From Megalodesulfovibrio gigas DSM 1382 = ATCC 19364 (lineage in GTDB: Bacteria > Desulfobacterota > Desulfovibrionia > Desulfovibrionales > Desulfovibrionaceae): a stretch of 32,059 nucleotides of DNA. Both the position numbers and the translations under genes were made by a program. Positions 15,621 through 16,715 of the stretch are shown piece after piece. Under the pieces are notes generated by a model. That model saw nothing but the letters and a program-made list of their open reading frames with translations. It had not been told where the DNA came from and did no database searches. The first letter of the stretch is position 1. The number at the start of each line of letters is the position of its first letter. Where the stretch lies: assembly GCF_000468495.1 (NCBI RefSeq), contig NC_022444.1, positions 2,944,800-2,976,858 of the forward strand, read 5' to 3'.

Positions 15621-15660
15621 GGGGAATCCTGCAGCAAATGATGAGGGGGCGGGATTCCCC
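15621..15660 (+). terminator. Possible bidirectional hairpin between convergent genes
   Basis: GGGGAATCC (15621-15629) and GGATTCCCC (15652-15660) are perfectly complementary over 9 bases, with a 22-base loop. It lies between the FlgO-like stop and the selD stop, and its last base is the first base of the selD TAG read on the plus strand. No T-run follows, so termination is uncertain. Confidence 0.35.
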
Positions 15661-16715
15661 TACACCAGCCGCAACAACGGCCCATCTCCCGACGGGCTGA
15701 CATCCCCGGCCTCGCCGATGATTGCAGCCAGCTCGCCACGGTCTTCCAGCATGCGCACGGCCTGTTTCACCAGCGGCCCCGGCACGCCCAGCACCAGACC
15801 ACCGGAGGTCTGGGCATCGAACACCAGATCAGACCGCACCGGGTCCAGCCCTGCTGCCACGGCCACAGCCGAGGCGCAAAAGCGGCGGTTGGCATGGCTG
15901 CCCTCGGGCAACAGTCCCATGCCGGCCAGTTCCACGGCTTCTTCGATAAAGGGAATATCCTGAAGGGACAAGGTGATGGAGACGCCGGACGCCCGGGCCA
16001 TCTCCAGCAGATGCCCGCCCAGGCCAAACCCCGTCACATCCGTGGCCGCCGCCAGCCCCAGGGCGCGGATGACCTCCCCGCCCGCGGCATTGAGCCGCCC
16101 CGCCCAGCGGTAGAGCAGATCTTCCAGACGGTCCTTGTCTTCCCAGTCCGCCTTCACGGCCGTGGCCAGCACGCCGGTGCCCAGAGGTTTGGTGAGCACC
16201 AGGACATCGCCGGGCTTCAGCCCTGCATTGCGGGCGATGCGCCCCGGCTCCACCACCCCGGACACGGCCAGGCCGAACTTGATTTCCCGATCCTCCACCG
16301 AATGCCCGCCAGCCAGCACGGCACCGGCTTCCAGCACCTTTTCCAGCCCGCCCTGCAGCATGGCCTGCAGCACGGCGAGATCCATTTCCTTGGCCGGAAA
16401 GCAGACGATGTTCATGGCCGACCACGGCTCCCCGCCCATGGCGTACACGTCGGACAGGGCATTGGCTGCGGCAATCTGCCCGAAGCGCCAGGGGTCGTCC
16501 ACGATGGGCGTGAAAAAATCCACCGTCTGGACAAGGGCCTTGCCCGGCGGAAACGTCAGCACCACGGCATCCTCGTTGCCGGCGGTGCCGGCAAGCACGC
16601 GAGGATCGGCCGGCACATGCAGCCCGGCGAGCACCACCTCCAGGTCCCCCGGAGGAATCTTGGCGGCTCAACCGGCAGCGGATGCGGTCTGGGTCAGTCG
16701 TTTGGAAGCAGTCAT
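15660..16715 (-). CDS. selD: Selenophosphate synthetase SelD, itself a selenoprotein
   Basis: 351 residues counting selenocysteine. SelD makes selenophosphate from selenide and ATP, the donor for Sec-tRNA and other selenium uses. The open frame seems to begin at 16637, but the family N-terminus continues upstream. From the ATG at 16715 it reads MTASKRLTQTASAAG, then TGA at 16670-16668, then AAKIPPGDLEVVLAGL. The TGA falls exactly where SelD has Cys or Sec, three residues before the catalytic Lys (UAAK versus CGCK in E. coli), so it is read as Sec16. Other motifs are DFFTPIVDDPWRFGQIAAANALSD, GGHSVEDREI, TKPLGTGVLATA, TDVTGFGLGGHLLEMA and DAQTSGGLVLGVP. The gene begins 6 bases after the LysR regulator stop. 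It implies that selA, selB and selC exist elsewhere in the genome. Confidence 0.97.
16637..16670 (-). promoter_or_regulatory. Sec codon of selD and candidate SECIS hairpin
   Basis: The UGA is at 16670-16668. Bacterial SECIS elements lie just 3' of the UGA inside the coding region. Here CCTCC (16655-16651) pairs with GGAGG (16641-16637); an inner GG/CC pair leaves a GGGA tetraloop and one bulged U. The hairpin begins 15 bases after the U of the UGA, within the normal range. The fold was done by eye, and SelB-binding loop bases cannot be confirmed. Confidence 0.55.

Follow-up and report, generated by a model that had tools for sequence, protein, structure and literature searches.

The selD gene of Desulfovibrio gigas very probably encodes a selenocysteine-containing selenophosphate synthetase

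Introduction

The stretch of DNA analysed here (the window, 32,059 nucleotides from Megalodesulfovibrio gigas, also Desulfovibrio gigas) raises the question of whether a TGA triplet inside the selD frame ends translation or specifies selenocysteine (Sec). A first-pass annotation had proposed that the frame, apparently starting at 16637, in truth continues upstream through the TGA to an ATG at 16715, and that the product is a selenoprotein. The gene is almost certainly the selD of Desulfovibrio gigas, encoding a Sec-containing selenophosphate synthetase; Sec insertion, the chemistry of the product and its self-dependence are what we infer from known biology.

Reading frame and gene product of selD

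The selD gene (selenide, water dikinase or selenophosphate synthetase) occupies positions 15660–16715 of the minus strand, with the ATG (16715–16713), the TGA (16670–16668) and the stop codon (15662–15660) all lying in the same frame. Translation with TGA read as Sec gives a product of 351 residues with one recoded codon, the predicted Sec at residue 16 (U16), in the context AGUAAKIPPGDL. Under the standard code the open reading frame begins at GTG 16637 and comprises 325 residues lacking the active-site motif; a standard-code ORF caller starts selD 26 codons late and loses its active site. Against the curated model TIGR00476 (cut-off 125) the full-length product reaches 340 bits, covering model positions 1–306 of 311, and it contains both AIRS domains (PF00586 and PF02769). 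It is the sole match above the SelD cut-off in the M. gigas genome. With Cys written for Sec, residues 4–321 align to the solved SelD 3u0o, residue 16 falling on the GAGC Cys and Lys-19 (codon at 16659–16661, minus strand) on a Lys of 3u0o. SelD requires a Cys or Sec followed three residues on by Lys, and this arrangement is found as U16-A-A-K19; the placement of the TGA (16668–16670) at the Cys/Sec site three residues before the Lys, put forward in the first-pass annotation, is borne out by the alignment. Similarly, its upstream extension of the frame to ATG 16715 agrees with an N-terminus that is conserved in relatives. Comparison with the gene of a same-genus genome (G015) gave a dN of 0.050 and a dS of 0.461 (dN/dS about 0.11), a ratio indicating that selD is under purifying selection.

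Conservation of the TGA codon in the family

A search of 149 family genomes recovered SelD over the cut-off in 130 and no SelD over the cut-off in 19. The Sec/Cys site was readable in all 130, that of G112 from a second contig fragment; locus L144, with the site outside the alignment, and the duplicate loci L069, L063, L067 and L141 were left out. The codon at the site is TGA in 128 genomes, the same-genus genome among them, TGC in one (G008) and TGT in one (G110), the genomes being related and the events therefore not independent. The relatives have thus retained TGA instead of a Cys codon, the outcome of an alignment with Sec and Cys forms that had been suggested as a check. A Lys follows three residues after the predicted Sec in all 128 TGA genes. 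An in-frame UGA where homologues carry Cys or Sec is the mark of a bacterial selenoprotein, and this is what the family displays (128 TGA, 2 Cys codons).

Of the two Cys genes, locus L042 (G110, C5:82339-83376) shares a contig with selA, selB and tRNA-Sec, which all lie no more than about 7 kb from it; it is a naturally occurring Cys form in a genome that has kept the Sec genes. Locus L041 (G008, C1:1158160-1159194) belongs to a genome in which selA had no match, no selB passed the cut-off, the best tRNA-Sec (E 2.3e-8) is not strong and selenouridine synthase had no match. The gene preceding L041 falls in a cluster with G069 that resembles YedF by eye, and the Cys-SelD of G008 may serve a third, cofactor-type use of selenium. 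At a further locus, L142 (G129, C23:14792-16057), selD is divided over two frames around model position 160; the genome is 66% complete, and the split probably comes from an error of assembly.

Selenium machinery and decoding of the UGA

The genome of M. gigas contains selA (616 bits), selB (328 bits) and tRNA-Sec (selC, 85.6 bits), so that the check on these three genes set by the first-pass annotation came out in favour of Sec. The tRNA-Sec gene is located outside the window, in which ARAGORN found no tRNA. Co-occurrence was counted in the 121 genomes of 90% completeness or more, a tRNA-Sec being taken as strong when its best E was no higher than 3.3e-15; the remaining genomes reach 2.7e-9 or worse, the level of other tRNAs. 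TGA-SelD is present in 107 of the 121, accompanied by selA, selB and a strong tRNA-Sec in 103 and by two of the three in 4. None of the four genes was found in 8 genomes, and G008, with its Cys-SelD, has none of selA, selB and selC. No SelD over the cut-off was found in five genomes of this set that carry at least two of the genes selA, selB and selC (G010, G014, G047, G062 and G145); in G014, part of a SelD is present where a contig ends. Among the less complete genomes, G022 (67%) has a TGA-SelD, with selA, selB and selC all missing. G047, an assembly of 4 contigs that is 99% complete, carries selA, selB and tRNA-Sec with no SelD found; its four AIRS-domain genes resemble ThiL, PurM, HypE and PurL by eye, a formate dehydrogenase of TIGR01553 was not found in it, and the case is either an assembly gap or a real oddity.

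Two formate dehydrogenase alpha genes of the M. gigas genome bear on the use of selenium, one reading through a single in-frame TGA and the second having no TGA. The TGA-containing gene product aligns with the solved chain 1h0h over 976 residues, with X, a non-standard residue, at the UGA site; we take 1h0h to come from D. gigas and its X to be Sec. Selenouridine synthase (TIGR03167), over its cut-off in 8 of the 149 genomes, gave no match at E 0.001 in M. gigas; thus, of the two uses of selenophosphate sought, only Sec synthesis was found in this organism.

One alternative to Sec is translation of the UGA mostly as another amino acid, such as Cys or Trp, by suppression. Nothing was found in its favour, and against it stand the presence of selA, selB and tRNA-Sec together, the conserved region of a SECIS-type hairpin in place behind the codon, and the non-standard residue in the solved chain that matches the UGA formate dehydrogenase. 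We give non-Sec readthrough very little probability and retain Sec as the predicted residue.

The stem-loop downstream of the UGA and the remaining alternatives

A putative bacterial SECIS-type stem-loop extends over positions 16637–16655 of the minus strand, from nucleotide +13 to +31 after the UGA, with an 8-bp stem and a GGA loop at +21. The 50 nucleotides from the UGA onward fold at -22.9 kcal/mol (z -0.89), a value equalled or bettered by 35 of 200 shuffled sequences and not significant alone, and an Rfam scan of the window gave no match at gathering thresholds. Across relatives, a hairpin qualified when it had a G within the first two loop positions and a stability of -4 kcal/mol or better. 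Such a stem-loop is present in 128 of 128 TGA genes, and at -6 or better in 90% of them; the criterion is loose, as 12 control windows along the same genes pass in 17–87% of cases at -4 kcal/mol and in 10–72% at -6. A strong stem that satisfies the criterion is present in one of the two Cys genes as well, that of G008. The stem pairs covary only modestly: several are almost invariant, and pair 13–31 is non-standard in 32 of the 128 genes.

The synonymous sites are stronger evidence for a SECIS element than the hairpin counts. Synonymous entropy was scored on codons with a residue conservation of 60% or more, with the 175 conserved codons beyond residue 32 as the reference for z. Codons 23–26 display the four lowest synonymous entropies among the conserved codons (z -2.8 to -3.5) and correspond to nucleotides +19 to +30 past the UGA, an interval that takes in the upper stem, the loop and the greater part of the 3' arm. 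A SECIS-type hairpin is thus recognised on comparative evidence across relatives.

The position of this hairpin bears on a second alternative, in which translation restarts at GTG 16637 and yields the 325-residue product without the active-site loop, for a function other than selenophosphate synthesis. A mechanical ORF finder does return the GTG 16637 frame. Against a restart, the first base of this GTG coincides with the final base of the hairpin, and relatives conserve, in the same frame, the family N-terminus that precedes the GTG; the shortened product would lack both the Sec site and the Lys, leaving the genome without a complete SelD. The chance that the restart product is the gene's real output is minute.

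Decay of the gene can be set aside with comparable firmness. A standard stop codon does interrupt the frame, as a nonsense mutation inactivating selD would, but the single TGA falls exactly at the Sec/Cys site and recurs in 128 genomes, and dN/dS against the same-genus gene is about 0.11. The UGA formate dehydrogenase, moreover, would need selenophosphate in a genome with one SelD only over the cut-off, which makes a pseudogene exceedingly improbable. A sequencing or assembly error hiding a true TGC or TGT, and with it a Cys-SelD, has a precedent in the Cys codons of 2 of the 130 family genomes, but its probability is equally negligible given TGA in all the others, including the same-genus genome, and the constraint on synonymous sites in the hairpin codons. 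Because TGA occupies the same site in 128 of 130 genomes, its origin by error or decay is very unlikely; the first-pass annotation had called both less likely. A Sec-containing SelD is the reading carried forward here.

The LysR-family neighbour

A LysR-family gene (about 17648–16722, minus strand; PF03466 and PF00126) lies between rplQ and selD and ends 6 bases from the selD ATG. A terminator-like hairpin of 14 pairs followed by a T run (17726–17695, minus strand) separates rplQ from lysR and suggests that lysR and selD form a unit separate from the ribosomal operon; 3 such sites were returned by the scan, against 1.8 expected. In 43 of the 130 genomes the gene immediately upstream of selD, and on its strand, is a relative of lysR; among the 125 genomes whose upstream DNA reaches 800 nucleotides or more, the count is 42. 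At E 1e-40 one lysR match per genome was obtained in 92 of 149 genomes and in none of the 13 lacking SelD, selA, selB and selC, a weak association as the 13 are related. Where lysR lies away from selD it is found beside rplQ in 30 and beside rpoA in 29 of 30 chosen genomes. Its place thus follows the ribosomal operon, and the link with selD may be only one of neighbourhood. A literature search on sulfate reducers for any paper linking LysR to SelD or to selenophosphate found nothing, and the evidence speaks neither for nor against a role of lysR as a selenium regulator.

Proposed mechanism and self-dependence

As PMC1794560 and PMC13188914 describe, Sec-tRNA is delivered to the UGA by SelB, and the selenophosphate that SelA uses is the product of SelD. 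By analogy with this known biology, SelB, bound to the hairpin just past the UGA, would insert Sec from Sec-tRNA-Sec at residue 16, placing Sec16 in the N-terminal loop three residues ahead of the conserved Lys. The full-length enzyme would then convert selenide and ATP into selenophosphate, from which SelA would make Sec-tRNA-Sec. SelD already in the cell would in this way help to produce further SelD; if selenium or SelB were missing, the chain would stop after 15 residues. Because its UGA would be read as selenocysteine, SelD would need selenium for its own synthesis; and because SelA uses SelD's selenophosphate for Sec-tRNA-Sec, we infer that SelD depends on its own product. The first-pass annotation had called this a built-in feedback loop. 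The dependence stands, as a deduction from the pathway; no evidence of regulation was found, and the term is thus to be read as dependence only. The M. gigas selD offers a clean, family-wide example of an enzyme needing its own product for its synthesis.

A bolder proposal would be that Sec is kept in the SelD of this family as a working selenium switch, SelD rising only with selenium and turning on the selenoprotein programme cooperatively. We regard this as improbable. A single base change suffices to turn TGA into a Cys codon, and if the switch were true, the rarity of Cys forms (2 of the 130 genomes with a readable site) would be a sign of selection acting on the switch as well as on faster chemistry.

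Comparison with known selenophosphate synthetases

Sec-containing SelD proteins have been described for years, and the first-pass annotation was right to call them known in some bacteria. Table 3 of PMC1794560 (2006) lists SelD among the D. vulgaris selenoproteins. According to PMC4561486, 19% of the SelD genes of a prokaryotic reference set encode Sec, and RNA structure prediction recovered bacterial SECIS elements in Sec-encoding SelD genes. The review PMC13188914 (2026) describes Sec-SelD with the motif UxxK, and SelD is treated as a known selenoprotein in PMC1242214 and PMC12013277. The D. gigas genome paper (PMC4287179) gives 9 selenocysteine-containing proteins, among which the SelD discussed here is very likely already counted.

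Of the solved proteins, 3u0o belongs to the same family, over the aligned residues 4–321, and differs in carrying Cys in the motif GCGCK where M. gigas SelD has Sec, as predicted, in GUAAK. The motif of the SelD of 2yye and 2zod, GCAAKVGPGDL, is very close to the GUAAKIPPGDL of M. gigas, the difference being Cys in the solved chain against predicted Sec; the native gene of 2yye and 2zod presumably carries Sec. The closest described system is the Sec-SelD of D. vulgaris (PMC1794560, Table 3), which shares the family, the host group, the UxxK Sec site and a SECIS-type hairpin in the coding region, a likeness drawn from description. Against Sec-SelD as a class (TIGR00476, UxxK) no difference was found in the M. 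gigas protein. Thus, the M. gigas case is ordinary for its family and of an already known kind.
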